Shown: positions 1,376-25,619 of the stretch, one piece after another | Layout of the letters: each line of letters begins with the position of its first letter | Numbering within the stretch: position 1 is the first letter of the stretch | DNA from: a virus | Reading direction: 5' to 3' (one strand) | Virus record (IMG/VR): IMGVR_UViG_3300013127_000026 | Span: 1-26,418 of that record | DNA length: 26,418 nt | Made by a program: the position numbers and the translations under genes | The notes under the pieces: model-generated | The model's database searches: none | Seen by the model: the letters and a program-made list of their open reading frames with translations, nothing else | What the model was told of the DNA's origin: nothing

Positions 1376-3136
1376 GTGACCAAAGAACAATTAATTATTG
1401 AAGTAACAAAATGCATGAGGAACACTCCTTATGCGTTGAGGACGTATTTGCAGACCTATGACAACACGGTATCCAAATATGTCCCTTTGGACCTCTTTCC
1501 CGACCAAATACGACTCATCGAGGATTATGATGAGTTTAATGAGAATATAGCACTCAAATACAGACAAGCCGGTGTAACAACCGTCACCGCCGCTTGGGCT
1601 TCCAAGAAATTGGTTTTTGCAAAGAAACAAAAACCTGAAAAAATACTGATTATTGCCAACAAATTGGATACATCCGTTGAGATGGCAAATAAAATCAGAG
1701 GGTTTACTGAGCAATGGCCAGCATGGGTTGGTGTTGGATTTTCTGTAGAAAAAAATTCACAAAGACATTTTAAACTATCAAATGACTGTGAAGTGAAAGC
1801 GGTTGCTACTTCAAAAGATGCCTTACGTGGTTATACACCAACAATTTTGATTTTCGATGAAGCTGCGTTCATTGAAGCTGACAACGACTTTTGGTCTGCT
1901 TGTATGGCCTCACTTTCCACAGGTGGTAAAGTAATAGTTGTATCTACCCCTAATGGTTATGACCCAATATATTATGAAATATATGACCAAGCCCTAAGAA
2001 AGATGAATGAATTCAAAATCTCTGAGATGTTTTGGTATAGAGACCCAAGATATACCAGGGATTTGTATGTGGTAAAAACCACAGATTTAGTTCATTTTTT
2101 ATTGAATAGGGAAGACTATCCCCAAGATATCGTAGTAGACTTATCAGTTGATAATCCATATGAGAGAGACCATAAAATTACAACGGATTATATATCCCAA
2201 GGATATAAGCCTTGTTCTGCGTGGTTTGAAGGTATGGTGAAAAAACTCAAGTATGATAGGAGAAGAGTAGCTCAGGAATTGGAGTGTAATTTCTTAGGTT
2301 CAGGTGATAACGTATTTGAATCTGAACTCATGCAAAATATTTCACACAATCAGTTGATGGAACCAACAGCAAAAATGATGGGGGGTTCACTGTGGATATT
2401 CAAAGAACCCGAAAATAATCACAAATATGTTATGGGTGTGGATGTGTCAAGAGGAGACTCTGAAGACTTTTCTTGTATTGAAATTATTGATTTTGATAGT
2501 CGTGAACAAGTATTGGAATACGTTGGAAAGGTTCCCCCTGATGTCATAGCAGAAATTGCATATAAGTGGGGTTCAATGTATAATGCCTATTGTGTTATAG
2601 ATATTACGGGGGGTATGGGAGTGTCAACAGCAAGAAAAATGCAAGAGATGTCATACGCCGCGGGACTTTACGTTGACAACGTGGACCCATCAAAAAAATG
2701 GAAATGGGACCCAAAACTTAATGAAAAAATACCAGGAATTAATTTCAACTCCAAAAGGGTTCAAATTATTTCAGCGTTTGAAGAAGCTATGAGACATGAC
2801 TTCAAAATATATTCACATCGTCTCTACAATGAAATGAATACTTTCATTTATATCCATGGAAGACCTGACCACCAAAAAGGTCATCATGATGATTGTATTA
2901 TGGCTATGTCAATGGCAATTTATGTCGCTGAAAAGAATTTTCAATCACTTCAAAAGGTTGTCAATCATACAAAGGCTATGCTTAATTCTTGGACTAGTAT
3001 TAGTCACGAAAACAAAAACACATCTGAATTTTTTAATCCCATGGTTCCACAAATGGGACGTCAGAACACACACATACCCGGTCAAGCTTCTCGTAGTGAC
3101 TATCAGAAATATGGATGGTTATTTGGGGTAAAATAA
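1376..3136 (+). CDS. 17: Terminase large subunit (T4 gp17-like)
   Basis: DNA-packaging motor ATPase and headful nuclease acting at the portal vertex. The 586-residue length is close to T4 gp17. ATPase motifs are a Walker A-like loop RQAGVTT (residues 63-69), Walker B ILIFDEAAF (157-165) and coupling motif STPNG (190-194). The C-terminal RNase H-fold nuclease shows its acidic triad in GVDVSRG (D356), VIDITGG (D409) and HHDDCIM (D505/D506). The classical Walker A lysine is replaced by Val67, and Lys61 just upstream may substitute, as in other deviant-Walker terminases. The apparent start is GTG 1376, 6 bases after the previous stop; an in-frame ATG lies 13 codons in. Unlike T4, no sheath or tube genes follow; the portal comes next. 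Confidence 0.96.
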   Translation: MTKEQLIIEVTKCMRNTPYALRTYLQTYDNTVSKYVPLDLFPDQIRLIEDYDEFNENIALKYRQAGVTTVTAAWASKKLVFAKKQKPEKILIIANKLDTSVEMANKIRGFTEQWPAWVGVGFSVEKNSQRHFKLSNDCEVKAVATSKDALRGYTPTILIFDEAAFIEADNDFWSACMASLSTGGKVIVVSTPNGYDPIYYEIYDQALRKMNEFKISEMFWYRDPRYTRDLYVVKTTDLVHFLLNREDYPQDIVVDLSVDNPYERDHKITTDYISQGYKPCSAWFEGMVKKLKYDRRRVAQELECNFLGSGDNVFESELMQNISHNQLMEPTAKMMGGSLWIFKEPENNHKYVMGVDVSRGDSEDFSCIEIIDFDSREQVLEYVGKVPPDVIAEIAYKWGSMYNAYCVIDITGGMGVSTARKMQEMSYAAGLYVDNVDPSKKWKWDPKLNEKIPGINFNSKRVQIISAFEEAMRHDFKIYSHRLYNEMNTFIYIHGRPDHQKGHHDDCIMAMSMAIYVAEKNFQSLQKVVNHTKAMLNSWTSISHENKNTSEFFNPMVPQMGRQNTHIPGQASRSDYQKYGWLFGVK

Positions 3137-3173: not shown

Positions 3174-5012
3174 ATGAGTGAACAGAATTTAACGGTGTGG
3201 CAAAGGTTATCCAAAACCTTTGGTCCAAATTCGCTTCTGAATCAAGATTATCCTACTTACAAGTTCGATAAGAAAGAACTTCTTAGAACTAAAAGTAGAG
3301 ATGAATACGAGAGAGAAAAACTACAGGCTCGACAGAGTTATTATCTTGCAAATCAGTGGGCTAAGGTAGAAAACAATTTATATTCTCAAGCAATTTATTA
3401 CGAACCATCGAGACTTTCTGCTCAATACGATTACGAATCAATGGAGTATACTCCTGAGATTTCAGCGGCATTAGACATCTATGCTGAGGAGTCTACAACA
3501 CCAAACGAGGATGGATTCATTCTTCAAATTTATTCTGAATCCAAAAGAATAAAAGGTGTTTTAGCAGATTTATTTAATAACAACTTGGACATCAATACCA
3601 ATCTCCCAATGTGGACGAGAAATACCTGTAAGTACGGGGATAATTTTGTCTATTTAAAATTGGACCCTGAAAAAGGGGTAGTTGGATGTCAACAATTACC
3701 AACAATTGAAATAGAACGTAGAGAGGTCGGGGTAAGTCAAAAAATTTCAATTGAACCTGAAAAACCTGAAGATAGAAAAGCTCTACATTTCGATTGGAAA
3801 AATAAAAATATGACTTTCCAATCTTGGGAAATGGCTCACTTCAGATTACTTGGAGATGACAGGAGATTACCATATGGAACTTCAATGTTAGAAAAGGCAA
3901 GAAGAATTTGGAAGCAACTTCTTCTTTCTGAAGATGCGATGTTAATTTATCGTACATCGAGAGCACCTGAAAGAAGAATTTTCAAAGTATTTGTTGGGAA
4001 TATGAATGATGATGATGTTGAAGCCTACGTACAACGTGTTGCAAACAAATTCAAAAGAGAGCAAATTGTAGATAGTAAAACGGGACAAGTAGACATGAGA
4101 TTCAATCAAATGGCGGTAGACCAAGATTATTTTGTTCCTGTTAGAGACCCCGCAGCACCAAGTCCAATCGATACTTTAGCGGGTGCACAAAACCTGTCTG
4201 AAATCGCCGATATCGAATATATTCAGAAAAAACTCTTGACCGCACTTAGAGTCCCAAAAGCTTTTTTAGGATTCGAAGAAGTTGTTGGTGATGGTAAAAA
4301 TTTGTCCTTACAAGACATTCGTTTTGCAAGAACCATCAATAGGATTCAAAGAAGTATGCTTCAGGAACTTAACAAAATTGCGATTGTTCATCTGTTCTTG
4401 TTAGGTTTTGAAGATGAATTGGAAAATTTCACTTTAGGTCTTACAAACCCTTCAACCCAAGCCGACTTACTGAAAATTGATGTTTGGAAAGAAAAAGTTT
4501 TACTATACAAAGATTTGGTTTCCGACCCTGGAAATGGTATTTCTGCCACTTCATCGACTTGGGCTAAAAAACATATTTTTGGTTGGTCTGATGATGAGGT
4601 TAAGATTGATTTACAACAACAAAGAATTGAAAGAGCTGTAGGTGAAGAGTTGAAGCAAACACCAACTGTGATTTCTAAGACCGGTGTATTTGACAATATA
4701 GACAAACTTTATGGCTCATCAACAGGAGCAACACCATCAGCCGGTGCTGAGACAACACCAGGTGGAGAAGAAGTACTCGGAGGTTTTCCTGGTGGGGGAG
4801 AAGAAGTCCCACCACCTGAAGCGGCTCCATTGGAGGCTCCTGAAGCGCCCGCTCCAGCTGAGGCGGCAGTAACGCCTGAGTCCAAACAGAAAGACATGAA
4901 TATTTTAGTCGAAACTGATTTGATTGAAGGTAAACAAATCATAGATTTGGGGCACGGACAAAAATCTTTAGGAAAAATTTCTGAGGAATTGGATAAGTTG
5001 TTGAACTCTTAA
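3174..5012 (+). CDS. 20: Portal protein (T4 gp20-like)
   Basis: Forms the dodecameric ring at the capsid vertex: nucleates prohead assembly, docks terminase and carries DNA in and out. The 612 residues include strong T4-family signatures: MEYTPEISAALDIYAEE (90-106), YGTSMLEKARRIWKQ (234-248) and RTSRAPERRIF (260-270). After residue about 510 comes a low-complexity Gly/Pro/Ala/Glu tail (to about 590), probably disordered, followed by a short charged helix. That tail makes the protein longer than T4 gp20 (524 residues). It has its own intergenic gap with a TATTTATA box, an A-rich leader and no Shine-Dalgarno sequence. Confidence 0.95.
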   Translation: MSEQNLTVWQRLSKTFGPNSLLNQDYPTYKFDKKELLRTKSRDEYEREKLQARQSYYLANQWAKVENNLYSQAIYYEPSRLSAQYDYESMEYTPEISAALDIYAEESTTPNEDGFILQIYSESKRIKGVLADLFNNNLDINTNLPMWTRNTCKYGDNFVYLKLDPEKGVVGCQQLPTIEIERREVGVSQKISIEPEKPEDRKALHFDWKNKNMTFQSWEMAHFRLLGDDRRLPYGTSMLEKARRIWKQLLLSEDAMLIYRTSRAPERRIFKVFVGNMNDDDVEAYVQRVANKFKREQIVDSKTGQVDMRFNQMAVDQDYFVPVRDPAAPSPIDTLAGAQNLSEIADIEYIQKKLLTALRVPKAFLGFEEVVGDGKNLSLQDIRFARTINRIQRSMLQELNKIAIVHLFLLGFEDELENFTLGLTNPSTQADLLKIDVWKEKVLLYKDLVSDPGNGISATSSTWAKKHIFGWSDDEVKIDLQQQRIERAVGEELKQTPTVISKTGVFDNIDKLYGSSTGATPSAGAETTPGGEEVLGGFPGGGEEVPPPEAAPLEAPEAPAPAEAAVTPESKQKDMNILVETDLIEGKQIIDLGHGQKSLGKISEELDKLLNS

Positions 5013-5036: not shown

Positions 5037-5735
5037 ATGACAATCGGTCAGATAAAATCAATTATAGAGGAAAACTTACTCAGTTCTTACAAAAATGAGA
5101 AAGAGTTTAAAAAAACCTTAAGAGAGTTCAAAGAGAACGTATTGAACGATAAAAGGTTTTCAAAATTATTTTCTGTGTACGAACAGCTTTCGACTCCTCA
5201 AGGATTATCTGAGAAAGATGCTGAGCTTTTCTTGGATGAAGGTGTAAATTTGATTTCCAAGATTATTCCTTCAGTTAAAATGCCTTATTCCAAAAACACA
5301 TCCAAAACCAATATCTACGTTGATATTGACAATTTAGTTTACACCACAAAACACAATATCAGTGAAAGAATTCAATCCAAAAAAAATATCATAGGTTTAC
5401 TAATGAGTGAACCAAAAAGGATTGAGGAATCTGTAAAAATTCCAGTGAGCTCAATGGTAAAAATTGCGAATCAAACTTTGGAAAATTACATTCAATCGAT
5501 GGATTCAGGAAGTAAAAAACTTTTTTTGGAGGTTATTAAATCTGATAAAGAAACACTCGAAAAACAATACTCGTCCCTGAAAGAATCTACCATCTCAAAA
5601 CTTAATAATTTACTTTCAACTCAAGATGAATCAGAAATGAAGGTCAAAATTTCTGAAACAATCGAAAAACTTCAAAACGAGAATTTTACACAAATCAATT
5701 ACGTAAAATTGATTTCTTTAGAAAACGGCCTATAA
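5037..5735 (+). CDS. Unknown helical protein between portal and protease
   Basis: A 232-residue Lys/Glu/Ser-rich protein with mostly helical composition and no motif I recognise. The N-terminus (MTIGQIKSIIEENLLSSYK) looks like a short amphipathic helix; residues about 150-225 are rich in charged heptad-like stretches. In T4 the portal is followed by the small prohead-core genes 67 and 68, so a prohead core role is possible by position only. The last six bases overlap the end of the convergent bS21 gene on the other strand: codons GGC-CTA-TAA here share CTA with the other gene's TAG. Confidence 0.85.
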   Translation: MTIGQIKSIIEENLLSSYKNEKEFKKTLREFKENVLNDKRFSKLFSVYEQLSTPQGLSEKDAELFLDEGVNLISKIIPSVKMPYSKNTSKTNIYVDIDNLVYTTKHNISERIQSKKNIIGLLMSEPKRIEESVKIPVSSMVKIANQTLENYIQSMDSGSKKLFLEVIKSDKETLEKQYSSLKESTISKLNNLLSTQDESEMKVKISETIEKLQNENFTQINYVKLISLENGL

Positions 5736-5918
5736 TCCGTTTTTCTTTTTTTCTTTGTAAATTGCTTTAAATAATTTTTTCCTCTTTTTTACAGACCTTT
5801 TTTCAAATTCCTTTCGTTCATTCAGAATTTGGTTCTGTTTCGTTTTGATAACTTTATTCTTTAGTAGTTTGAGAGATTTCTCTAAGTTATCGTTATTTTT
5901 TATTTCTATTATCAACAT
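5730..5918 (-). CDS. rpsU: Phage-encoded ribosomal protein bS21
   Basis: A 62-residue, very basic protein. It lines up without gaps with the Bacteroidota form of small-subunit protein bS21 as I remember it: N-terminal MLIIxIK, then N11, LKxxKxKxxKT (16-26), L32, RxxFxKxSVxKR (35-46) and KAxY (51-54). bS21 sits on the 30S platform near the anti-Shine-Dalgarno end of 16S rRNA, and phage-encoded copies are known from environmental phages. A TATTTATA box lies 7 bases before the ATG, suggesting late expression. The gene points against its neighbours, overlaps the upstream + gene's stop by six bases and is divergent from the gene at 6014. It is short, but the family match makes a chance frame unlikely. 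Replacement of host bS21 in ribosomes is inference. Confidence 0.85.
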   Translation of the reverse strand: MLIIEIKNNDNLEKSLKLLKNKVIKTKQNQILNERKEFEKRSVKKRKKLFKAIYKEKKKNGL

Positions 5919-5925
5919 ATTATGA

Positions 5926-5933
5926 TATAAATA
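5926..5933 (-). promoter_or_regulatory. TATTTATA motif upstream of bS21 gene
   Basis: On the minus strand TATTTATA ends 7 bases before the bS21 ATG, within gatatttatatc, itself almost palindromic. It is in the 95-base divergent gap (5919-6013) between bS21 and the + strand gene at 6014. Confidence 0.5.
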
Positions 5934-5974
5934 TCATTATTCATTTCATTTTTGACTATTGGGAAAACTACTCG

Positions 5975-5990
5975 TATTTTTATAAAAATA
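5975..5990. repeat. Perfect 16-base palindrome in the divergent gap
   Basis: TATTTTTATAAAAATA reads the same on both strands (8-base half-sites, no spacer). It lies 23 bases before the ATG at 6014 and 42 bases from the bS21 box. It could be an operator for a dimeric regulator or a variant promoter box for the + gene. AT-rich palindromes also arise by chance, so function is only suggested by its position. Confidence 0.35.
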
Positions 5991-6013
5991 AACTTAATGT
6001 AATATGAGTATTA

Positions 6014-6442
6014 ATGAAAAAAGGCAAAAGTGTAAAACTAAATCTGTTCAATCCAATTAAATCTATGTATGGAACAGTTGACTCCAAAAATTTGAAATCA
6101 ATTTTTATAAACATCCAATCATGGGTCACACCCAAACAAGAAATGGAAAATTGGAACAGAATTGTTAGTAACCTAAGTAGACAAATAAAACACTCTGTAT
6201 ACGACTCAAACAAATCAGAAATTTTTTTATCAAAAACAATAATTGACTTAGACTTGAGAGTAAGTGGAATATCCGCAGGAAAAAAATCTTTTTTCAACTT
6301 GGAAGTTAATTTATTTGCAAGTGAAGAATTGGATTTCAAATCCGAAAATATGAAAAAAGAAATCAAAACAATTATAAAATCTATCTATCAAAACAACATC
6401 AAAAAGAACAAGTATTTTGATTTCTCAAAGTCCAAAAAATAA
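6014..6442 (+). CDS. Unknown 142-residue basic protein
   Basis: I do not recognise the family. The protein is Lys/Asn/Ser-rich. It has a hydrophobic alternating stretch (about 70-105: sKTIIDLDLRVSGISAGKK, then FFNLEVNLFA) typical of beta strands, and a charged helical C-terminus ending KNKYFDFSKSKK. The ATG at 6014 is the only start in this frame with good composition; the ATG at 6004 opens a different frame that stops after 18 codons. It lies between the bS21 gene (divergent) and the prohead protease, so a head-assembly role is possible but unsupported by sequence. Confidence 0.8.
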   Translation: MKKGKSVKLNLFNPIKSMYGTVDSKNLKSIFINIQSWVTPKQEMENWNRIVSNLSRQIKHSVYDSNKSEIFLSKTIIDLDLRVSGISAGKKSFFNLEVNLFASEELDFKSENMKKEIKTIIKSIYQNNIKKNKYFDFSKSKK

Positions 6443-6481: not shown

Positions 6482-7195
6482 ATGAAACAATTAAGAATAC
6501 TGGAAGCCCATGAACTTGGGCATGGAATTTTGATTGAGATGGACGCAGGTTTTATAAATCCTCAAGATTCGCTCAATCTACCATTAATGGAACAGGCAAA
6601 AAAAATGGATTTCAAAAATCCATTTGAGTTTTATGCTGTCCTACAGAAATATGACACAGCAAATCGTAATGGAAGATTTTATCCTGAGAAAATTCTTAAA
6701 AGAGAAGCTGACAGATATAAAAAAATAATTCAAAAAGGTTTATCAACTTCAGAGCTTAATCATCCTGAATCCTCTTTGATTGATTTGGATAGGGTATCAC
6801 ATTTAATCACAGACATTTGGTGGGACAAAAATATATTGATGGGAAAACTCAAATTGTTGACAAGTCCAGGTTTTCATGAATCAGGTGTAGTTTCTTGTAA
6901 AGGAGATGTTGCAGCAAATTTAATGAGACAAGGAGTAACGATGGGGGTTTCCTCTCGTGGTGTCGGGTCACTGAAAAAAGTTGGTGAAAGAAATGAAGTA
7001 CAAGATGATTTTGAATTGATTTGTTTTGATTTAGTGTCCTCACCCTCAACACCAGGAGCATATTTATTCTCCAACATCGATGAAAGAGGTCAATATGAAG
7101 AAAATCTTGAAGAAGAAAAAAAATCCAAAATAGAAGGTTCAATGGACAAGTCTATTGATTTAATGAAAAAACTTACCGATTTTTTGGGAAAATAA
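6482..7195 (+). CDS. 21: Prohead core protease (T4 gp21-like)
   Basis: Serine protease that cleaves scaffold and capsid proteins during head maturation. The 237 residues show family landmarks: TANRNGRFYP (59-68), catalytic-histidine region ELNHPES (His94) and catalytic-serine region GVSSRGVG (Ser157/158), followed by FDLVSSPSTPGAY (182-194). T4 gp21 prefers (L/I)-x-E followed by A or G. This protein carries ILE|A at residues 6-9, a plausible self-cleavage site near its own N-terminus. The last 40 residues are charged and probably disordered. It sits directly upstream of its expected substrates and 4 bases before the small gene at 7200. Confidence 0.93.
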   Translation: MKQLRILEAHELGHGILIEMDAGFINPQDSLNLPLMEQAKKMDFKNPFEFYAVLQKYDTANRNGRFYPEKILKREADRYKKIIQKGLSTSELNHPESSLIDLDRVSHLITDIWWDKNILMGKLKLLTSPGFHESGVVSCKGDVAANLMRQGVTMGVSSRGVGSLKKVGERNEVQDDFELICFDLVSSPSTPGAYLFSNIDERGQYEENLEEEKKSKIEGSMDKSIDLMKKLTDFLGK

Positions 7196-7199
7196 TTTT

Positions 7200-7412
7200 A
7201 TGGACGAAAAGTACTTTGTAGCAAAAATTCAATATGAACTTCCTGATGAAACAACAGGTAAAATTAAAAAAATTAGAGAAGAAAAATTAGTAAAAGGTTT
7301 TTCTGTTACAGATGTTGAGGCAAAAGTTACCAAAAGGTATGAAAGTTTTTCATATGATTGGCGAATAACATCAGTTTCCGAAAGTAAAATCGATGAAGTA
7401 ATTGAAAAGTAA
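7200..7412 (+). CDS. Small protein resembling DUF4494
   Basis: A 70-residue protein with beta-strand/helix pattern YFVAKIQYEL...KIKKIREEKLV then FSVTDVEAKV and WRITSVSESKIDEVIE. From memory this spacing matches DUF4494: a short protein with a KxxY strand, a 'SFTEAEA'-like helix start and a final ITxIxxxK strand. DUF4494 is found mainly in Bacteroidota; its function is unknown. It lies 4 bases downstream of the protease, sharing its transcript, and is followed directly by a hairpin terminator. Family assignment is moderate; a profile search would settle it. Confidence 0.8.
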   Translation: MDEKYFVAKIQYELPDETTGKIKKIREEKLVKGFSVTDVEAKVTKRYESFSYDWRITSVSESKIDEVIEK

Positions 7413-7857: not shown

Positions 7858-9492
7858 ATGCAAGAAAATAAAAATTTAGTAGAAGAGGCGCTTATTCAAA
7901 TGAAAAACGTTGAAGAAGCTATAGCCGAAAACGCAAAAGGAATACTTGCTTCGACAATGAAGGAAGAAATCAACCAATTAGTAAAAGAATCTCTTTCTGA
8001 ACAAGATGAGATTGACATCGATGCTGAAATGGGAATACCAAGTTCTGATGAGGAGTTAGGTATGAATATTGATGTTGAAGATGACGTGGAGGGTGACATG
8101 GGTATGGAACTCGACATGGATGCTGAAGAATCTCCAATCGATTTGACTGGAGCATCTGATGAGGAAATTTTGAAAGTCTTCAAAGCAATGGGCGAAGAAG
8201 ATGGAATTATCGTAACAAAAGACGATGAAGAAATTCAACTCACAGATAACGATTCTGATAATGAGTATATCATCAAACTCAAAGAGTCAAAATCTAAAAT
8301 CAATGAAGACGATATGGTTGCAAAAATCGTAGACGACATCTTCAATTCTCCTGAATCTGAAGATGAAGAGGAAAAAATTGATTTTTCAAAATTAAACTCT
8401 GATGATGAGGATGAAATGGCAATGGCTATGGATTCCGAAGAAGAGATGATGTATGAAATCACACTTGACGAAGAGGATGGCGAAGATGACGAATCAAAGC
8501 TTGACGAAGAGGATGGCGAAGATGACGAATCAAAGCTTGACGAAGAGGATGGCGAAGATGACGAATCAAAGCTTGACGAAGAGAGTGATGACGAATCAAT
8601 TCTTGACGAAGAGGATGGCGAAGATGACGAATCAATTCTTGACGAAGAGAGTGATGACGAATCATTAGATGAGGCATACAATCACAAGAAAGCAATTAAA
8701 CCTAAAGGTGTTGGAATTGGCAGTGGTCCAAAATTTTCTTATAAAGCTACAAAGGGTGGTTTTAATGAAAAGAAAAAAGAAGGTCCAAAATCTGTTGGTA
8801 CAGGTAAAGCAAAATTCGAATACAAGAAAGGTGCTAATATGGAAGGTACATCCAAGAAAGTTGAAACTAAAGAAGGTCACTACGGAATGAATAAGGGTGA
8901 TAAATCTAAAACTCACAAAGGAGATGAAGATTATACAACCAAAAAAGGTGATACTTTGAAAAGAAAGGCTTTCACAAAAGAAGAGACAAAAGAAGCAGCT
9001 AGAACATATGGCATGGGTTCTAAAGAGGGTAGAGGTCTGAGAAAGGGCATTACCAATAATAGAAACTATGTATATGGTCCTAACGGAGTAAAAGTAGAGT
9101 CTCTCGAAGCAGAAGTTAGTATGTTGAGAGAAAAAAATGAAGAGTATAGAAAAGCTTTGAATTTGTTCAGAGAAAAACTAAATGAAGTTGCAATCTTCAA
9201 TTCAAATTTAGCTTACGCTACAAGACTTTTCACGGAACATTCAACGACTAAAAAAGAAAAAATCAATATCCTCAGAAGATTCGATTCTGTTGAAACTTTG
9301 AAAGAGTCAAAATCTCTTTATAAGTCTATCAAAGATGAATTATCTACTGTTGAAACTAAATCGATTACCGAATCAGTTGAGAAGTTAAATACTACTGTAT
9401 CATCAGGTTCAGCAATCAATCTTATCGAGTCAAAAACCTATGAAAATCCTCAGTTCTTGAGAATGAAAGATTTGATGACTAAGATAAAATAA
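7858..9492 (+). CDS. 22: Prohead core scaffold protein (T4 gp22-like)
   Basis: Internal scaffold around which the capsid assembles and which the protease later degrades. Position between protease and capsid protein, and the C-terminus, identify it. Residues 413-455 form a coiled coil (leading into KLNEVAIFNSNLAYATRLF), followed by EHSTTKKEKINILRRFD, a signature shared by gp22 homologues. The 544 residues are twice the T4 length because of two additions. Residues about 40-272 are extremely acidic and include a tandem repeat. Residues 275-410 are basic and Gly/Lys-rich with short motifs such as GSGPKFSYK and GTGKAKFEYK. A protease-type site LDE|A (270-273) marks the acidic/basic boundary. Confidence 0.9.
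   Translation: MQENKNLVEEALIQMKNVEEAIAENAKGILASTMKEEINQLVKESLSEQDEIDIDAEMGIPSSDEELGMNIDVEDDVEGDMGMELDMDAEESPIDLTGASDEEILKVFKAMGEEDGIIVTKDDEEIQLTDNDSDNEYIIKLKESKSKINEDDMVAKIVDDIFNSPESEDEEEKIDFSKLNSDDEDEMAMAMDSEEEMMYEITLDEEDGEDDESKLDEEDGEDDESKLDEEDGEDDESKLDEESDDESILDEEDGEDDESILDEESDDESLDEAYNHKKAIKPKGVGIGSGPKFSYKATKGGFNEKKKEGPKSVGTGKAKFEYKKGANMEGTSKKVETKEGHYGMNKGDKSKTHKGDEDYTTKKGDTLKRKAFTKEETKEAARTYGMGSKEGRGLRKGITNNRNYVYGPNGVKVESLEAEVSMLREKNEEYRKALNLFREKLNEVAIFNSNLAYATRLFTEHSTTKKEKINILRRFDSVETLKESKSLYKSIKDELSTVETKSITESVEKLNTTVSSGSAINLIESKTYENPQFLRMKDLMTKIK
8464..8667 (+). repeat. In-frame tandem repeat in scaffold gene
   Basis: Order A-A-A-B-A'-B. Unit A is 36 bases (LDEEDGEDDESK) at 8464-8499, 8500-8535 and 8536-8571. 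B is 30 bases (LDEESDDESI) at 8572-8601. A' is 36 bases ending in Ile at 8602-8637. B ending in Leu is at 8638-8667. The three A units are identical at nucleotide level, so the array expanded recently. All units preserve the frame. Confidence 0.95.
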
Positions 9493-9522: not shown

Positions 9523-11346
9523 ATGGGAGCATTATTAGAATCAGGTCTTGTTGGTAACATCGGTCTTAAGCACCTAAAAGTTATCAAAGAAGACACAATC
9601 AGTAAATGGGACAAATTAGGATTCCTTGAGGGTCTTAAAGGTCACATGAGAGAAAACGTAGCTCAGCTTTATGAAAACCAAGCAAGCTATTTAATCAATG
9701 AAGCGGCGACTACATCTGACACAGGTGCATTCGAAACTGTGGTTTTCCCTATCGTTAGAAGAGTTTTCTCTAAATTGTTAGCTAACGATATCGTATCTGT
9801 ACAAGCTATGAATTTACCAATCGGTAAATTGTTCTACTTTGTACCTAACATTCAGAACTATGAAACAGGTGGTTCTCAAGCTGACAACACAGGTATTCAC
9901 TACAAACCAGTAGGTGCACCTAGTGGACCAACTGCAGATGACCCAAATGATGGTTACAATTACAACAACGGTAGAGATTTGTATGACAGATTCTACGAAG
10001 GTAATGAACCAGCTTTGGACCCTCCAGGTTTGTTCGACTATTCTAAAGGTCAGTTCTCAGCTATCACAGGTACTGCGGTAACTTCTGTTTGGAATAATAC
10101 AACATTGAATTTGGAACCTTCTGGTTATTCAACTGATAACTACAGAAAAGTACTTCTTATCATGTCAGGTTTTGCATCTGATGGAGCTGGTAAACTTATC
10201 GGTCCTGATGGTCAACCTATGGATAACGAGTCTTTCTTAGCTGACCTTACCCTCTACGGAAGTACAACAGCAACTAACCCAACAACTGGTGTTGGTAGAA
10301 ACGCTGGACCATACCTCTTCAGAGTTGTTACTCAAAGATATGGTAAAGGTATTGTAGAGTATGGTAACAACAACCAAACTTTACTTTTCCCTGGGTCAAG
10401 AACTGGCGGTGGTCAGTACGATGATATCTGTACTGCAGACGGAGAAATTTATCTAGAAGTAGACCTTCAAGTTCCTTGTTGCGTAAGTTGCACAGGATGT
10501 ATTGATGGTTATACAGGTTCAACTTTCTCTTCAACTACAGGTAACAACCAAGCTTTCACACCTGTTTACAGAATTTACAAGAATTTGGAATTTGAAGACA
10601 GAATGGGTGAGGTTTCCTTTGACCTTATGTCAGTAACAGTTTCTGTGACTGAAAGAAAATTAAGAGCTCAATGGTCTCCAGAAATGGCACAAGACGTTGC
10701 AGCATTCCACAACATCGACGCTGAGGCTGAATTGACAGCTTTATTGTCTGAGCAAGTTGCGGCTGAAATCGATAGAGAAATCTTGAGAGACCTTAGAAAA
10801 GGTGCAGCTTGGAACTTGAGATGGGACTACAACGGCTGGAAGAGATTAGGTACTAATGCAGTTCCTTATACTCAGAAAGACTGGAACCAAACGCTTATCA
10901 CAGCAATCAACCAAATTTCAGCTCAAATCCACAAGTCTACCTTAAGAGGTGGCGCTAACTGGATTGTTGTATCTTCTGAAATCAGTGCAATTTTTGATGA
11001 TTTGGAATATTTCCACGTATCAAACGCAGCTCCTGAGCAAGACCAATACAACATGGGTATTGAAAGAGTTGGTACTCTTGCTGGTAGATATCAAGTGTAT
11101 AGAGACCCTTATTTCCCACCGAACCAAGTATTGTTGGGTCACAAAGGTACATCTTTACTTGACACAGGTTACATCTACGCACCATATGTACCTCTACAAC
11201 TTACACCAACAATGTATAATCCATTCAACTTCACACCAATCAAAGGTATCATGACTAGATACGCTAAGAAAATGGTGAACAACAGATTCTACGGTAGAAT
11301 CACAGTTGATGGTGTTAGAACATTCGATTTGAAAGAGTTGAGATAA
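9523..11346 (+). CDS. 23: Major capsid protein (T4 gp23-like)
   Basis: Forms the hexamers of the head shell. Family segments: LGFLEGLKGHMREN (32-45), then FPIVRRVFSKLLANDIVSVQ with MNLPIG (75-101), and VSVTERKLRAQWSPEMAQD followed by IDAEAELTALLSE (373-410). The protease site INE|A (58-61) corresponds to the T4 gp23 cleavage after LTE, so the mature protein probably begins at Ala61. At 607 residues it is longer than T4 gp23 (521). The excess lies at about 110-345, a Gly/Asn/Thr-rich insertion with a Cys cluster CCxxCxxC (319-326). Codon use is visibly less AT-rich than in neighbouring genes, as expected for a highly expressed gene. The A-rich leader has no Shine-Dalgarno sequence. Confidence 0.96.
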   Translation: MGALLESGLVGNIGLKHLKVIKEDTISKWDKLGFLEGLKGHMRENVAQLYENQASYLINEAATTSDTGAFETVVFPIVRRVFSKLLANDIVSVQAMNLPIGKLFYFVPNIQNYETGGSQADNTGIHYKPVGAPSGPTADDPNDGYNYNNGRDLYDRFYEGNEPALDPPGLFDYSKGQFSAITGTAVTSVWNNTTLNLEPSGYSTDNYRKVLLIMSGFASDGAGKLIGPDGQPMDNESFLADLTLYGSTTATNPTTGVGRNAGPYLFRVVTQRYGKGIVEYGNNNQTLLFPGSRTGGGQYDDICTADGEIYLEVDLQVPCCVSCTGCIDGYTGSTFSSTTGNNQAFTPVYRIYKNLEFEDRMGEVSFDLMSVTVSVTERKLRAQWSPEMAQDVAAFHNIDAEAELTALLSEQVAAEIDREILRDLRKGAAWNLRWDYNGWKRLGTNAVPYTQKDWNQTLITAINQISAQIHKSTLRGGANWIVVSSEISAIFDDLEYFHVSNAAPEQDQYNMGIERVGTLAGRYQVYRDPYFPPNQVLLGHKGTSLLDTGYIYAPYVPLQLTPTMYNPFNFTPIKGIMTRYAKKMVNNRFYGRITVDGVRTFDLKELR

Positions 11347-12965: not shown

Positions 12966-13451
12966 TTAATTCTTGAATAATAAATTTAAGAAATTTTTCC
13001 ATGTTTCCAAATCATTTTCATTCCTACCCATATTAGCGGTATAACAACATAAAACGACATTATCTTTTGTGTATTCCTTATTTCTATCTAATCTATCTAA
13101 TGATGGTTGTTGAGGATGTTTTGATTTGTTTGAGGGGACCAAGGGTATTTTGAACCAATAACATAAACCTTTTTGATTTAAGAAAATTTCATTTATGTCT
13201 GACACAGTCAAATTATTTTTGATTCCTCTATATCTTGAGTCATGAATCAAAGTATTTTGCCATAATCTTACTCTTCTCTCTTTTTGCTTAATCCCTTCTA
13301 TTTTCCTAAACTCGTAACTTTCTCTTTTTTTTCGTTTGTACTCACGTGTTATATTGAGAACACAGTTTTTACATTTTTTTCCTCTTTGGGATTTGTAAAA
13401 ATCTTCTATATTTTTTTCGATATTACAAACGACACATAATTTTTTATCCAT
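12966..13451 (-). CDS. HNH endonuclease with N-terminal zinc finger (probable homing endonuclease)
   Basis: 161 residues from ATG 13451 (MDKKLCVVCN). A longer frame to 13475 is rejected because it would include the upstream TATTTATA box. A four-Cys finger (C6, C9, C27, C30) precedes a very basic linker. The nuclease fold is at about 93-145: QKGLCYW, SLDRLDRNKEYTKDNV (117-132) and LCCYTANMGRN, the pattern of phage HNH enzymes related to I-HmuI-like and free-standing homing nucleases. It nicks or cuts DNA to spread itself or neighbouring markers. It lies beyond the bidirectional terminator that ends the minus-strand structural operon, so it has an independent transcript. The codons are AT-rich compared with the capsid genes. 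Confidence 0.88.
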   Translation of the reverse strand: MDKKLCVVCNIEKNIEDFYKSQRGKKCKNCVLNITREYKRKKRESYEFRKIEGIKQKERRVRLWQNTLIHDSRYRGIKNNLTVSDINEIFLNQKGLCYWFKIPLVPSNKSKHPQQPSLDRLDRNKEYTKDNVVLCCYTANMGRNENDLETWKNFLNLLFKN

Positions 13452-13454
13452 ATA

Positions 13455-13462
13455 TATAAATA
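13455..13462 (-). promoter_or_regulatory. TATTTATA motif abutting HNH start codon
   Basis: On the minus strand TATTTATA is followed by TAT and then ATG, a gap of only three bases. If it is a -10-type element the mRNA would have essentially no leader. Confidence 0.4.
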
Positions 13463-13491
13463 TATGGATAAACATAAAGGAAATAAAAAAA

Positions 13492-19765: not shown

Positions 19766-20512
19766 TTACATGTTTTTGAACTTTATCTGTATTGAGGTAT
19801 AAAGTTTCTTGAATTTCTTGATGGACCCCCTAATTTCTTTCGTACTCAGATTTGTCATTTCTCTGAGAGAAAGTAAAATGATATTTTTGTTGAACTTGTT
19901 GTTTTCTTCTCCTGTAAAAATTGTTTCGTAGTTGTAAAACAGGTCTATAAGTGCAATACCCAATTTCTTTTCATTTTCGTTCAAGCTTTCTGATTCTACG
20001 AAACTTTTCAGTTCCTCAAGATACTTTGAAAGTATCAGGTTTGTGTCAATAACGTCTTCGTCGATTCTATAAATCAAATCAGGTCTTTCTTCCAAACTAG
20101 ATGATATGTCCTCATAGGAGACTTTTCTATTTGTCTCTTTTTGGTCTTTTATGATTTGACCCATCAAGTAGTTTTTACAAATAGTACCGAAGTAGGAGTA
20201 TGCCTTTTTGTTCTTTGAAGGTTTGAATTTATCTACTTTGGTCATAAGGAAGGAGTGAGTGTCAGTATGAATTTCTATGAAATCCATATCCTTACGATAA
20301 AGTTTATACCTTCGTATGATAGATGAAATCATCTTGTCTAAGGGGGCCCTCAGGAACTCGTTGTAGATTTTATTTTTTTCTTCTACTGTATCTGCGACTA
20401 AAAACTTTTTTACCGCATTTTCTTCTCTAACATCGAAATAGTTCTCTTTGACAGCCTTTCTTCCTCTTTTCTTTGATGTGACATCTTCTGTGTTTGCAGA
20501 AAGATTTTCCAA
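19766..20512 (-). CDS. 55: Late-transcription sigma factor (T4 gp55-like)
   Basis: Directs host RNA polymerase to late promoters. Residues about 50-133 match gp55/sigma region 2: EFLRAPLDKMISSIIRRYKL (52-71), YRKDMDFIEI, then HSFLMTKVDKFKPS (86-99) and the characteristic AYSYFGTICKNYLMGQIIKD (104-123) followed by ETNRKVSYED. At 248 residues it is longer than T4 gp55 (185). The N-terminal 45 residues are charged, and residues about 208-240 form a helix-turn-helix-like segment (SLREMTNLSTKEIRGSIKKF), where T4 gp55 has little beyond its clamp-binding tail. The frame offers TTG 20512 as start; the next Met is residue 61, inside region 2. It follows the glycosyltransferase gene by 2 bases and ends just before a late-type box. 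Confidence 0.9.
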   Translation of the reverse strand: MENLSANTEDVTSKKRGRKAVKENYFDVREENAVKKFLVADTVEEKNKIYNEFLRAPLDKMISSIIRRYKLYRKDMDFIEIHTDTHSFLMTKVDKFKPSKNKKAYSYFGTICKNYLMGQIIKDQKETNRKVSYEDISSSLEERPDLIYRIDEDVIDTNLILSKYLEELKSFVESESLNENEKKLGIALIDLFYNYETIFTGEENNKFNKNIILLSLREMTNLSTKEIRGSIKKFKKLYTSIQIKFKNM

Positions 20513-20514
20513 AA

Positions 20515-21318
20515 TTAGTTTGTGGATGGTTCATATTTTATGACTCTGTCGTCAGTAAAGAAATATTCTTGTTTTGCGCTTTGAATCCAAAATCTTACCT
20601 CAGGTTCACTCAAAATACTATCACCAAATTTGTAATTCCAAAAAATGGAACCTTCTCTCATGTTGGTATGTTTGTATCCCAATCTTGGTATGGTCATAAT
20701 AGGTACTGAGTTGTAAGTAAGTCTCAATAAAAACTCATAAACAAATGTTAGTTTTATTGAAGATTTGATTCCTCCGAAGTCATCAAATAAGGTCTTTTTG
20801 ATTGCAGAGCCTGATACCTGAAAGTTTTGATAATCTTGTAGTGTATCATTTGTTAAGATTCCCATTTCCTGAGAAAAATTGGCGGCAAAAGTAGCTTCGT
20901 TTGTAAAACCTGCGAACCCACCCTTTTCATCAGTTTCTACCACAACAGGTAAGAACATTTGTACTTCAGGGAATGCTTCAGAATATTTTAGGACGTTATC
21001 AAACCAGATGTTTGAATATTCGTCATCAAACTCCATTACAGATATCCAAGTTCCTTGAGCATTTTTTACTCCGAAGTTTACTTGAGACGCGAAGTTTGGA
21101 GTTTCTTCCCAAGGTTTAATGACAACGTTCAATTTACCAAAATCGTATGACTTCAAAAAAGAAGTCAAATTTTCCTCTTGGGTTGGTACAATTAGAAGTT
21201 CTTCGAACTCTATTTTTTGATCTTTGAGTGAGTCGATTGCTTTAGTAAAATAATCCGGAAAATCTTTTGTGATTGCAGATTTTAACGGAAGAATAACTGA
21301 AAGAGAAATTTTTTTCAT
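20515..21318 (-). CDS. Glycosyltransferase, GT-A fold (family 2-like)
   Basis: 267 residues. The N-terminus SLSVILPLKS (5-14) and strand EELLIVPTQEE (39-49) fit the nucleotide-sugar-binding Rossmann-like half. FGVKNAQGTWISVMEFDDEY (82-101) is the usual 'A.G.yi.flDdDd' segment, with EFDDE (96-100) as the metal-binding DxD equivalent. The second half contains YEFLLRLTYNSVPIMTIPRL and a His (KHTN) typical of GT2 enzymes. It begins one base after the stop of the GT-B gene upstream, so the two are co-translated. It transfers an unknown sugar; acceptor could be host surface glycan, virion protein or modified DNA. Not determinable from sequence. Confidence 0.85.
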   Translation of the reverse strand: MKKISLSVILPLKSAITKDFPDYFTKAIDSLKDQKIEFEELLIVPTQEENLTSFLKSYDFGKLNVVIKPWEETPNFASQVNFGVKNAQGTWISVMEFDDEYSNIWFDNVLKYSEAFPEVQMFLPVVVETDEKGGFAGFTNEATFAANFSQEMGILTNDTLQDYQNFQVSGSAIKKTLFDDFGGIKSSIKLTFVYEFLLRLTYNSVPIMTIPRLGYKHTNMREGSIFWNYKFGDSILSEPEVRFWIQSAKQEYFFTDDRVIKYEPSTN

Positions 21319-21319
21319 A

Positions 21320-22375
21320 TTAGTTAGCTAGTTTTGAAAGTTGTTCTTCGAAAGAGTCGGCTCTTGTGTCAAAATATGAAGAGAAAAGTTCTGTGACTTC
21401 TGTTTCGAATTTTTGTTTATTCATGAATTTTTTCGCGGTAGATTCCATACTGGTGTATAGTTGAGGTTTGATATTGTCTTCAAGCCAATTTTGTATGAAG
21501 TCCGCGATAAAATCTGTAATTAATGTCACGTCGGTAATCCAAATGCCATTATCTTCTGTAATCCAAGTTGGTTGTAAATCAGGTATTTTACCTAAACAAG
21601 GTACTCCACAAGCCATTGATTCCAATGGAAATGTTCCAAATCCTGATTTGTTGTCTACCCATACACTCAGACAACACTCTTTGAGAGAATTGGCAAAATC
21701 CTTTTCACTTAACCCTCTCATATCTCTGAACGTAAACCATCTAAATTGAGGAAACTTTAGATAAAAGGTTTTGATTATGTTCATAGTGTCTTCTTGTTCT
21801 TTTGTATGAACTGCGATGATTGGTAGTGGCGGTATAGTTCTTTTTGTGAAACACTCACTAATCTGAGGTTCCAATATATCAAAGGAAGATTGTCTCATAA
21901 CTTTTTCGACATACTCCTTTTGTGAACCTGTGGTCGTAATACATTTGTAAAAACCAAATTGAGGCCAACTTTGACCTGGTTGAAGTGTCTCGGTTATGTA
22001 AGCGTAGGATTGTACCAAAACAATCTTAGCACAAGGTAATTTTTTTACTTGCTCCATCACGTACCCGAAAATTTCCGGAATAACTAAAAAATCCTCAGGT
22101 GTGATTTCTAAGTTTTGACCTTCGATGGATTGGTGTGGTAGTAATTCCATATAATCTTTTCCCAACCAATTTGCAACTCCGGTGTATTCATTTTTTTCAT
22201 GAAGCATAATTGGATTGAAACCGGCATTTTTCAGGGTCATTGCCATCTGATAAATGTATCTGATGGAACCTTTAGCATTACCTTTTGTATCTTGAACAAA
22301 AAGGTAAATTCTTGATTTTCTATCTCGTAGATTTTTGATTGATAACTCTACTTTTTCTTTGTTTACGTTAGACAT
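21320..22375 (-). CDS. Glycosyltransferase, GT-B fold (family 4-like)
   Basis: 351 residues. The C-terminal half carries SGFGTFPLESMACGVPCLG (244-262) with Glu252, the donor-binding signature of GT4-type retaining enzymes. The N-terminal half has a GSIRYIYQMAMTLKNAGFNP segment (36-55), the typical acceptor-side Rossmann start, and KIVLVQSYAYIT (117-128). The family is usually about 350-400 residues, so the gene is full length. It is packed between a conserved small gene (one-base gap) and the GT-A gene (one-base gap). Likely works with the nucleotide-sugar genes upstream in the same operon. Confidence 0.87.
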   Translation of the reverse strand: MSNVNKEKVELSIKNLRDRKSRIYLFVQDTKGNAKGSIRYIYQMAMTLKNAGFNPIMLHEKNEYTGVANWLGKDYMELLPHQSIEGQNLEITPEDFLVIPEIFGYVMEQVKKLPCAKIVLVQSYAYITETLQPGQSWPQFGFYKCITTTGSQKEYVEKVMRQSSFDILEPQISECFTKRTIPPLPIIAVHTKEQEDTMNIIKTFYLKFPQFRWFTFRDMRGLSEKDFANSLKECCLSVWVDNKSGFGTFPLESMACGVPCLGKIPDLQPTWITEDNGIWITDVTLITDFIADFIQNWLEDNIKPQLYTSMESTAKKFMNKQKFETEVTELFSSYFDTRADSFEEQLSKLAN

Positions 22376-22376
22376 T

Positions 22377-22649
22377 TTAATAATGATTAATCAGTTTTTT
22401 ATTTAGTAGTGTGTTGAAAGCAATTTTAAATGGAATACTGGTCTCTTTGGATTTTATTCCGAGTTTGTCATCCATATCATTGTTTTCAGTAAGTAATACT
22501 TCCATTAACATTTTCACCATTTCAAATTTGATGATGTTTACTCTACTTTCTGTTCCGCCAGTAATTTCATCAGACATTTCAGTGATGTCGAGATATTTTT
22601 CTATTTGGTCCAAATCAACAAAATAATTTTCTCCCAATACTTTTAACAT
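22377..22649 (-). CDS. Small conserved-looking protein of unknown function
   Basis: 90 residues (MLKVLGENYFVDLDQIEKYL...). The sequence VDLDQIEKYLDI, then VNIIKFEMVKMLMEVLL and PFKIAFNTLLNKKL, is that of a compact helical protein. I recall similar small proteins in T4-like environmental phages but cannot name the family. Its ATG overlaps the stop of the HAD-like gene (ATGTTAA, seven bases), which fixes the start. Confidence 0.82.
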   Translation of the reverse strand: MLKVLGENYFVDLDQIEKYLDITEMSDEITGGTESRVNIIKFEMVKMLMEVLLTENNDMDDKLGIKSKETSIPFKIAFNTLLNKKLINHY

Positions 22650-23239
22650 AGTTCTAAAATTTTTTGTTTTACGTCTTTGATATTTTCGACTTCGTAAGGT
22701 GAAGTGATATGTGAATTATAATGGGTTTTATATTTAATTAAAGTTTTGTTAGACGGATGGTTAGATAATAATTTTGGGTTTGCGGTGATGAGCACATCTA
22801 AGGTGTTCCACATAGAGTCAATTGTAGATTCACTATAAAATTTGTAATTTTCTATTAAACAACCAAACTTGGATAGGAAAAACAAAGATGCCGGTTTCGA
22901 TTTTCCAATTTCGTCTGAGACAATCCAGATATCATGGTTTTCTCTCAAATCAAAATAAAGTTCGTTCAGGTCAGTCATTCCATTATATTCCACGGAACCA
23001 GCATGTCCGAAGATTTCCATGGTATATTCTTCGTATAGGAAATTATAAAGTTCATCTTCATCTTTGAAACTGAGATGTTCATTAATATTGAGAGTGGTTA
23101 CATCGGAATTTACTTTATATTCGAAGGTCTTTTCACTTTCTTCTATGAAAGGATTATCAATATACCATTTCTGATAAACTTCCTGTATTTTTTTGAGAGT
23201 ATCTCTCAAAACTCCGTTTATTTCTATACCAATAATCAT
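22643..23239 (-). CDS. HAD-superfamily-like protein lacking catalytic aspartates
   Basis: 198 residues. The opening MIIGIEINGVLRDT aligns with HAD motif I (usually D-x-D-G), but both aspartates are changed: Glu6 and Asn8. Motif II is VSDE (Ser108). Motif III-like Lys is in IGKSKPA (Lys113/115). Motif IV, normally DD, reads DVLITANP (148-155) without the acidic pair. The fold looks kept while phosphatase chemistry should be lost, so a binding or regulatory role is likely. The start overlaps the PhoH stop as ATGA. Resembles phage 5'-nucleotidase-type HAD proteins by layout. Confidence 0.8.
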   Translation of the reverse strand: MIIGIEINGVLRDTLKKIQEVYQKWYIDNPFIEESEKTFEYKVNSDVTTLNINEHLSFKDEDELYNFLYEEYTMEIFGHAGSVEYNGMTDLNELYFDLRENHDIWIVSDEIGKSKPASLFFLSKFGCLIENYKFYSESTIDSMWNTLDVLITANPKLLSNHPSNKTLIKYKTHYNSHITSPYEVENIKDVKQKILELC

Positions 23240-23967
23240 TCTTCGTATCTTTCCAAAATTTTGGTTATTAAAGGATTTCTAACGATATCGGCAGATTTGA
23301 ACTCAAAAACGCCGACATCATCCATCTGTTTGAATTTTTCCAAAGCATCCCAAAGTCCTGTTTGTGTTTTATCCTTGTGTCTATCAAATTGGTCCAAATC
23401 CCCTGATATGAAAAATTTGGAGTTGAAACCAATTCTGGTCAAAAGAAGTTTCATTTGGTTTGGGGTTGCATTTTGAGCTTCTTCAAAGATTAATATTGAA
23501 TTATCGATATTCATTCCTCTCATATAAGCCAATGCAAAAACTTCGATAGCTTCAGCCTCTTTAAGTCTCTCTCTTGATTCTTTACCGATAATTTTATTTA
23601 GTAGATAATATGAAGGAAAAATGTACGGGTCCAATTTTTCCTCAACACCACCAGGTAAGCTTCCGAGTTTTTCCTCAGCTTCCACCGCTGGTCTAACAAT
23701 AATAATTTTTTCGTAGGAATTCTCTGGGTCAATAAGAAGGTCAATAGCACATTTCATTGCTATATAACTTTTACCCACACCTGCAGGTCCAGAACAAATT
23801 GTAATTTGATTGGTCTTTAAAATTTTATAATATTCTTTCTGACTCTCACTTAAAAATTTTTCTTTAGTTTTCTTTTTTACAATTTGATTGATTAATTCTT
23901 TTTTTGTTTTTGGTTTTTGCTCTGGTGTTGGAATTGGGGTGGATGATAATTTTCTTGTTTTACTCAT
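23236..23967 (-). CDS. phoH: PhoH-like ATPase
   Basis: 243 residues from ATG 23967. A TTG at 23973 is also open, but the ATG overlaps the previous stop as ATGAGTAA. Walker A is GPAGVGKS (60-67), Walker B region SILIFEEAQN (157-166), then the PhoH signatures MKLLLTRIG (172-180) and FFISGDLDQFD (185-195). PhoH is an ATPase/helicase-like protein linked to RNA metabolism, common in T4-like phages of marine and freshwater origin; its phage role is unresolved. Walker B has FEEAQN where I would expect a DEAQN form. The N-terminal 40 residues are a basic, Pro/Lys-rich extension. Confidence 0.92.
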   Translation of the reverse strand: MSKTRKLSSTPIPTPEQKPKTKKELINQIVKKKTKEKFLSESQKEYYKILKTNQITICSGPAGVGKSYIAMKCAIDLLIDPENSYEKIIIVRPAVEAEEKLGSLPGGVEEKLDPYIFPSYYLLNKIIGKESRERLKEAEAIEVFALAYMRGMNIDNSILIFEEAQNATPNQMKLLLTRIGFNSKFFISGDLDQFDRHKDKTQTGLWDALEKFKQMDDVGVFEFKSADIVRNPLITKILERYEE

Positions 23968-24466
23968 TTTCAACTATTTCACGTTTATCATGAGGTGCTC
24001 CGAAAGGGCGTCTGTAAATTGTTTTACCACCATCGGGACTCTCGAAAATCCATTTATTTTCAGTTTCAACATTTTCTACAGGGACCTGATAATCCTCATA
24101 GCTTTTTTGTTCTCTCAGTTCTGAGCCAGAGATTTCATTTATGTAATTCTTTATTTCAAATCTTTTATCATTGGTAATGTATACTTTTCTTGCCAAGGAA
24201 ACAAAATGATTTTCAAAAGTTTGAATTTTTTCGTACTCCCTTAATTTGTCTTCCACATCCCAAAGAGTTGAGTTTACCTCAACTAAATCATGATAAGCTT
24301 TGTCAATTTGTTTGTCATTCAAATAATGCGACGCTATATTATATAGATTTTCGAATTCATTATGGATATACTCCAATTTTTTCTCGTCGTCTATTCTGTT
24401 TTTTTTAATTTGTAAAATTGATAACTTGTCAATCAATTCACCTACGCTTACTGGTACGTTAATCAT
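23960..24466 (-). CDS. DUF6165-like protein with phage C-terminal extension
   Basis: 168 residues. Residues 1-125 match my memory of DUF6165: VPVSVGELIDKLSILQIKKNRI (4-25, helix start), then LVEVNSTLWDVEDKLREYEK, HFVSLARKVYITNDKRFEIK and SGSELREQKSYEDY. That family occurs in bacterial surface-polysaccharide loci and has no known reaction. Residues about 136-168 are an extra tail, WIFESPDGGKTIYRRPFG, a short module I recall at ends of unrelated phage proteins. Start and stop overlap neighbours by eight bases each (ATGATTAA, ATGAGTAA), so it is translationally coupled to gmd and phoH. Confidence 0.85.
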   Translation of the reverse strand: MINVPVSVGELIDKLSILQIKKNRIDDEKKLEYIHNEFENLYNIASHYLNDKQIDKAYHDLVEVNSTLWDVEDKLREYEKIQTFENHFVSLARKVYITNDKRFEIKNYINEISGSELREQKSYEDYQVPVENVETENKWIFESPDGGKTIYRRPFGAPHDKREIVENE

Positions 24467-25445
24467 ATAAATGGGTTTTAAAATATTTTAGCCAATACTC
24501 AACCATTTCATCGAGCATACCCTCAAAAGTATATTCAGGTTTCCATCCGAGTATTGTTCTCGCTTTTGTTGAGTCGCCTTTCAAATATTGGAGTTCCTCA
24601 GGTCTCATAAAAATTTGGTTTTGAACAACGTAGTCTTCATAATTCATACCAAGTTTTTCGAAAACGTATTTTGTCATTTGTCTTACTGAATGTGTTTCCA
24701 TTGTAGATACAACAAAATCGTCAGCTTCACTATGATTGAGAATCATGTGCATTGCTCTAACATAATCTTTTGAATGTCCCCAATCTCTGAATGAGTCCAA
24801 GTTTCCTAGTTCCAATTTTTTCGCAAAACCTAAGTGGATTTGAACCGCTGTTTTAACTACTTTATTGGTCACAAAATTCGAACCTCTTCTCGGTGATTCG
24901 TGATTAAAAAGGATACCATTGGTTGCAAATAATTTATAGGAGTTTCTGTAATTTTTTACAATCGAATATCCAAACATTTTTGAACATCCGTATGGACTCA
25001 CGGGATGCATTGGTGTGCTTTCTCTTTGAAATCCGTCTTCGTCTAAGCTATTACCAAACATCTCTGATGAGCTAGCCTGATAAAATTTTGCTTCAGGACA
25101 AATTCTTCTATATGATTCTAACATATTGAGTACTCCCAAAGCGTTAGTTTTAACAGTAAACTGTGGCATGTCGAAACTAATTCTTACATGGCTTTGGGCT
25201 CCAATGTTGTAGATTTCATCAGGTTTTACTTGTACGAGCGTTCTGTCTATTGAACTTTCATCAAGCAAGTCTCCATAATGTGTGTGAATTTTACCTTCTA
25301 AATGTGCTACTCTTGAGTCTTGATTTTCTGACATCGAATTTCTTCTGACCATTCCGTGTACTTCATATCCGAGTGTTAAAAGGTATTCAGCTAAATAACT
25401 ACCGTCTTGTCCGTTGATACCTGTTATAAATGCTACTTTGCTCAT
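24459..25445 (-). CDS. gmd: GDP-mannose 4,6-dehydratase
   Basis: Converts GDP-D-mannose to GDP-4-keto-6-deoxymannose using bound NADP, the entry to GDP-fucose, GDP-rhamnose and GDP-perosamine. 328 residues, full length. Cofactor loop TGINGQDGSYLAEYLL (8-23) with the family-typical GQDGSYL; GMVRRNS (31-37); catalytic SSSEMFG (125-131) and Tyr152-x3-Lys156 in SPYGCSKMFGY; then NHESPRRGSNFVTNKV. Very close to bacterial enzymes, so activity is expected. It is the second full enzyme-type gene of the operon, 6 bases after a 55-residue gene and after an aminotransferase-like gene. Confidence 0.96.
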   Translation of the reverse strand: MSKVAFITGINGQDGSYLAEYLLTLGYEVHGMVRRNSMSENQDSRVAHLEGKIHTHYGDLLDESSIDRTLVQVKPDEIYNIGAQSHVRISFDMPQFTVKTNALGVLNMLESYRRICPEAKFYQASSSEMFGNSLDEDGFQRESTPMHPVSPYGCSKMFGYSIVKNYRNSYKLFATNGILFNHESPRRGSNFVTNKVVKTAVQIHLGFAKKLELGNLDSFRDWGHSKDYVRAMHMILNHSEADDFVVSTMETHSVRQMTKYVFEKLGMNYEDYVVQNQIFMRPEELQYLKGDSTKARTILGWKPEYTFEGMLDEMVEYWLKYFKTHLYD

Positions 25446-25451
25446 TTTGTC

Positions 25452-25619
25452 TTAATTTTCTATGATTGTATTATCAAATTTATTAGTTATTGTAAATTGA
25501 CCGGGTTTGTCTTTTGATTTTTGTTTGAGACGTTCCAAGTCTTCGCTCTCTTCTTCCAAGAAAAGTGGTGTTAGAGGTTCTCCCTCAGTCAGTGATATGT
25601 TTCTCCAAAGTTGATACAT
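25452..25619 (-). CDS. 55-residue protein between aminotransferase and gmd
   Basis: MYQLWRNISLTEGEPLTPLF... to ...NKFDNTIIEN. The start is the ATG 25619 overlapping the upstream stop as TAATG. A longer frame to 25673 runs through the end of the aminotransferase-like gene and is rejected. Composition: a short hydrophobic N-terminus, an acidic helix (FLEEESEDLERLKQKSKDK), then a strand. No family recognised. It could be a separate small subunit or a remnant of a longer protein; its size and coupling to the aminotransferase-like gene invite that question. Confidence 0.65.
   Translation of the reverse strand: MYQLWRNISLTEGEPLTPLFLEEESEDLERLKQKSKDKPGQFTITNKFDNTIIEN

Follow-up and report, generated by a model that had tools for sequence, protein, structure and literature searches.

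A conserved phage bS21 gene in a head-gene cluster lies behind a late-promoter-like box and is without the extended Shine-Dalgarno sequence of host rpsU

The window analysed here is a virus record of 26,418 bases, whose host phylum, judging from protein similarity, is probably Bacteroidota. It carries on its minus strand a small gene for ribosomal protein bS21, surrounded by genes for the building of the phage head (Table 1). The earlier note had called this minus-strand frame of 62 residues and had described it as antisense amid plus-strand morphogenesis genes, and both statements were reproduced exactly, with the genes for the large terminase (TerL), the T4-type portal, the S77 protease and the Gp23 major capsid protein (MCP) adjoining it. 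The bS21 gene and its convergent neighbor share 6 nt where their stop codons meet, and these stops sit in an AAAACGG/CCGTTTT inverted repeat (window 5722-5745); the repeat was considered as a common bidirectional terminator at convergent stops and was rejected, because it was found in the closest relatives only. The 142-aa product of the divergent neighbor had no meaningful match in Pfam or PHROG, and its gene probably corresponds to 'bS21_CN' in Chen et al. 2022. The promoter-like pair ahead of the divergent gene is conserved in an alignment of this intergenic region from 48 relatives and is predicted to be the promoter of that gene; it is not of the same type as the late box ahead of bS21, and the two neighbors may thus be under separate control. 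An out-of-frame ATG (window 6004-6016, plus strand, ATGAGTATTAATGAAAAAAGG) lies 10 nt ahead of the start of the divergent gene. It is conserved in almost every relative, and an overlapping frame of only about 18 codons would start from it. Elsewhere in the window, an Endonuclease VII/HNH-like gene (12966-13475, minus strand; PHROG_1035, E 4e-21) is found amid the structural genes, an acidic unit (DEEDGEDDESKL) is tandemly repeated at 8453-8668 (plus strand) within the protein encoded at 7858-9492, and a run of surface-sugar genes (20515-26212, minus strand) around PhoH includes two glycosyltransferases, a GDP-mannose 4,6-dehydratase-like gene and a DegT aminotransferase-like gene.

Table 1. 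Positions of the bS21 gene, its neighbors and the associated features in the window
Feature	Position	Strand	Evidence
Large terminase (TerL)	1376..3136	+	PF03237 E 9.6e-15; PHROG_2 E 5.9e-40
T4-type portal (gp20)	3174..5012	+	PF07230 E 1.4e-74
232-aa hypothetical protein, convergent with bS21	5037..5735	+	ORF call
Phage bS21 (rpsU-like) gene, P0001	5730..5918	-	62 aa from ATG; PF01165 and PDB 7jil matches
Late-promoter-like box ATATTTAT/TATTTATA	5926..5934	-	7-8 nt ahead of bS21 ATG; upstreams compared across relatives
Promoter-like pair TTTTTGACT / TTTTTGAC-N17-TATTTTT for divergent gene 6014..6442	5949..5981	+	aligned intergenic regions
142-aa hypothetical protein, divergent neighbor of bS21	6014..6442	+	position, orientation; kept beside bS21 in relatives
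S77 prohead protease	6482..7195	+	PF03420 E 1.2e-22
Major capsid protein (Gp23)	9523..11346	+	PF07068 E 1.3e-70
Candidate T4 gp55-like late sigma factor	19766..20512	-	PHROG_234, TIGR02937, PDB profile

The earlier note had taken the 62-aa protein to match bS21 of the Bacteroidota type from end to end, and had proposed a profile search as a check. This search gave a significant match to PF01165 (36.1 bits, with 27 bits as the cut-off; E=5.4e-9), which covers residues 4-56 of the protein and positions 2-54 of the 55 in the profile, and the bS21 of Flavobacterium johnsoniae (PDB 7jil) was aligned with it end to end, over residues 1-61 (E=3.2e-6). The motifs that had been quoted for bS21, namely MLIIEIK, LKLLKNKVIKT, RKEFEKRSVKKR and KAIY, were all found in the protein, which is very rich in lysine, and its residue 54 is a tyrosine, that is, the aromatic residue of Bacteroidota-type bS21 at the position that stacks on the anti-Shine-Dalgarno (anti-SD) tail. 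The TIGR00030 score was 23.3 bits, under the equivalog cut-off of 28.95 bits, which fits the expectation for a diverged bS21 copy. Since the protein is homologous over its full length and scores below this cut-off, it is referred to here as a phage bS21, which does not imply functional equivalence to host bS21. A tblastn search with it against phage isolates gave no match, and the TerL and MCP matches among phage isolates were all below 60% identity.

Relatives were taken as the best 80 by TerL (84-99% identity); in 50 of them the contig continues for 3 kb or more past TerL. Every IMG/VR relative in this range whose region is covered carries bS21; it was found in 50/50 of these longer contigs, antisense and at a near-constant distance behind TerL. 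In the tree of host and phage bS21 that had also been proposed in the earlier note, the 49 phage sequences form a single clade apart from the host Bacteroidota sequences, a single branch with support 100/99 dividing the two groups, although 62 residues provide few columns and the inner forks are uncertain. The pairwise dN/dS of phage bS21 had a median of 0.16 and exceeded 1 in none of 178 usable pairs, and the phage bS21 thus evolves under purifying selection. A functionless gene, either a passive hitch-hiker or a recent capture from the host, would agree with the small size of bS21, and nothing else was found in its favor; such an origin is contradicted by the low dN/dS, by the conservation in all of the covered relatives and by the deep phage-only clade, and we regard it as highly improbable. 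Two or three bS21 matches were seen in some Bacteroidota genomes (G043, G094, G102, G109, G124 and G146).

The differences between phage and host bS21 are concentrated in residues 19-30 and 36-37. Residues 19, 23, 24, 27, 28, 36 and 37 are altered in all or nearly all phages (the host residues at altered sites being F23, D/E24, G27, T28 and T/Q36), whereas K51, A52 and Y54 are retained, so that a phage-specific loop stands beside retained C-terminal contacts. Residues K20, K22, V23, K25, T26, K27, Q28, K36, K40, S42, R46 and A52 are invariant in 49/49 phage rows and I24 is present in 48/49, the motif LK[NS]KVIKTKQ is fixed in phages, and position 54 is tyrosine in 48 rows and histidine in one. 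This pattern agrees with that of Chen et al. 2022, who described the aromatic residue Tyr54 and a phage-specific N-terminal half (PMC9723584), and further fixed positions are added here. It could be argued that a lysine-rich protein encoded in a head cluster has a role outside the ribosome, as a basic protein that binds RNA or is packaged in the virion, serving head assembly or being injected with the DNA, and virion packaging was raised as a possibility by Chen et al. (PMC9723584). However, the ribosome-contact residues, including Tyr54, have been kept against a strongly altered background, and a role of this kind is improbable.

The earlier note had also reported a late-type box 7 bases upstream of bS21, and this was borne out, since TATTTATA occupies positions 5933-5926 on the minus strand and ends 7 nt before the ATG. 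Among 45 distinct upstreams of bS21, the strict box, [AT]TATTT[AG]T, was present in 31, with a gap of 5-9 nt in 29 of these 31, and a looser box was present in 44, with a gap of 3-9 nt. The same box is found before the gene at 5037 (35/42 relatives, 10-18 nt from the ATG), the protease gene (42/42, 12-15 nt), the gene at 7858 (13/18) and the gene at 11661 (11/14); at these genes it is much rarer on the other strand, and in the relatives it is rare or absent before the starts of TerL, portal, MCP and the gene at 7200. Enrichment was seen at gene starts only and not over the whole window (19 observed vs 13.9 expected). For the other box-bearing genes, the gap between box and ATG was 10-24 nt in 100/101 cases, in contrast to the shorter gap at bS21 (p=4e-14, which is descriptive, related phages being non-independent samples). 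Two other elements near the start of bS21 were considered and rejected: TATAAATA on the plus strand (5926-5933) fits the T4 late consensus and is on the wrong strand for bS21, the relatives conserving ATATTT[G/A]T on the strand that encodes bS21, and a perfect palindrome, ATGATAT-AA-ATATCAT, just ahead of the ATG is absent from the relatives apart from the nearest copy of the window. At T4 late promoters, transcription starts about 5 nt past the box. If the start point is the same here, the 5' end of the bS21 mRNA would coincide with the ATG or lie no more than a few bases from it, and from the spacing of the box the transcript is predicted to be leaderless or nearly so. A candidate for a late sigma factor is encoded in the same window: 16/16 relatives matched the PHROG_234 late sigma family, although weakly (best E 5.5e-4), and the protein itself matched TIGR02937 (E 0.003) and had T4 gp55 (7d7c) as its top PDB profile match, at an insignificant E of 0.16.

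The 5' end of the gene differs from that of its host counterpart. The host Flavobacterium rpsU has an extended SD, GAGAGGAGGTGTCTATATT-ATG, and the median duplex energy with the 16S tail was -22.2 kcal/mol for 87 host rows, mostly Flavobacterium, vs -1.8 kcal/mol (best, -8.8) for 49 distinct phage bS21 starts. Autoregulated rpsU is defined by an extended SD ahead of the start codon with an energy under about -13 kcal/mol (McNutt 2023), and none of these 49 starts has one. The earlier note's remark that genes in this DNA are without SD sequences held, the strongest of 31 starts in the window being -7.3 kcal/mol and none being strong; because the absence is common to all other window genes, it is not by itself special to bS21. 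Of five further Bacteroidota-like bS21 genes taken from phage records, four are likewise without a strong SD (0.4 to -5.1 kcal/mol), and LR756501 retains one (-12.1 kcal/mol). What is new here is a viral bS21 copy that lacks the control signal of the host gene and lies directly behind a late-type box; promoters, leaderless mRNA and autoregulation are not mentioned in the text of Chen et al. 2022 (PMC9723584).

It is likely, in our judgment, that this is a working copy of Bacteroidota bS21 which has long resided in phages and is made late with the head proteins. Its most probable destination is the bS21 site on the 30S subunit of the host, because its C-terminal half and Tyr54 have been kept. 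Replacement on the ribosome is plausible: the phage protein would occupy this site, and the ribosomes of late infection would carry the phage form. Phage messages may gain an advantage, most likely in that 30S subunits stay supplied with bS21 and active on SD-less phage mRNAs while head proteins are synthesized in a burst; the simplest benefit would be a supply of bS21 free of the host rpsU feedback loop. Alternatively, the phage protein might poison host ribosomes and thereby lower host translation. The bS21 of pelagiphage HTVC008M enters E. coli 70S ribosomes, whose in vitro translation was then about 5%, in a heterologous host that is the sole tested case (Mizuno et al. 2019, PMC6375957); this loss of activity also speaks against the reading favored above. 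However, a shut-off of this kind is unlikely, since phage bS21 is expressed alongside head genes, while the phage itself needs translation (PMC9723584), and since the half that anchors the protein to the ribosome is conserved.

Chen et al. proposed that phage bS21 replaces host bS21 and favors phage messages (PMC9723584), and the earlier note likewise supposed that ribosomes with the phage protein prefer phage over host messages. This is in line with the phage-specific residues fixed at positions 19-30, within the N-terminal half that Chen et al. placed at the mRNA-binding region, and with the high late expression of phage bS21 together with MCP (PMC9723584). However, phage and host genes are both without SD, and no message feature that an altered bS21 could read was found, so that a selective effect is possible but doubtful. 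Furthermore, with Tyr54 retained, phage bS21 would be expected to leave the anti-SD concealed, a state that favors SD-less mRNAs of phage and host equally, and retuning of the ribosome would therefore not work through exposure of the anti-SD.

In Flavobacterium, the extended SD lets bS21-free ribosomes make bS21, which results in autoregulation of rpsU, and without bS21, F. johnsoniae ribosomes translate SD-less mRNAs less well and rpsU better (McNutt et al. 2023, PMC9976891). McNutt et al. suggested that this loop could counter bS21 phages, as a host counter-defence (PMC9976891). The phage gene might, quite tentatively, be seen as a copy that escapes this regulation, being made by ordinary ribosomes and then shutting off the synthesis of host bS21. 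An SD-less, leaderless phage mRNA would be translatable by ordinary bS21-replete ribosomes, and its product would fill bS21-free 30S subunits, removing the sole ribosomes able to translate host rpsU efficiently; with host bS21 synthesis switched off, new 30S subunits would take the phage form only. The contrast between the 5' ends of host and phage rpsU thus links phage bS21 to the feedback circuit of host bS21, and it yields a sharp prediction that is testable in F. johnsoniae.

When compared with known systems, the phage gene shares with the autoregulated rpsU of Flavobacterium (PMC9976891) a homologous protein and probably the same site on the ribosome, but the extended SD that defines that circuit is missing from it. 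The Pelagibacter phages HTVC008M and Mosig EXVC030M are similar in that bS21 is encoded by a myophage; however, they differ in host phylum and gene context, and the Mosig bS21 gene retains a strong SD (-17.7 kcal/mol). The closest counterparts are the 47 genomes of Bacteroidetes-infecting jumbo myophages with bS21 described by Chen et al. 2022, in which a reverse-strand bS21 lies between two hypothetical genes within the TerL/portal/protease/MCP cluster and is lost once TerL similarity falls below about 70% (PMC9723584). The window has the same arrangement as their clades a-e, with an antisense bS21 and two flanking hypothetical genes inside this cluster, and shares with them a Flavobacteriia-like bS21 with an aromatic residue 54, PhoH, a DegT aminotransferase and surface-sugar genes; the genomes of these clades are 293-331 kb, and relatives of the window are on contigs of 317-321 kb, those near to it in TerL being on contigs of up to 321 kb. 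The window does not differ in kind from clades a-e and is a new instance of a kind already described, since the gene, the place where it sits and the idea of a ribosome takeover were all published before (Chen 2022, Mizuno 2019).
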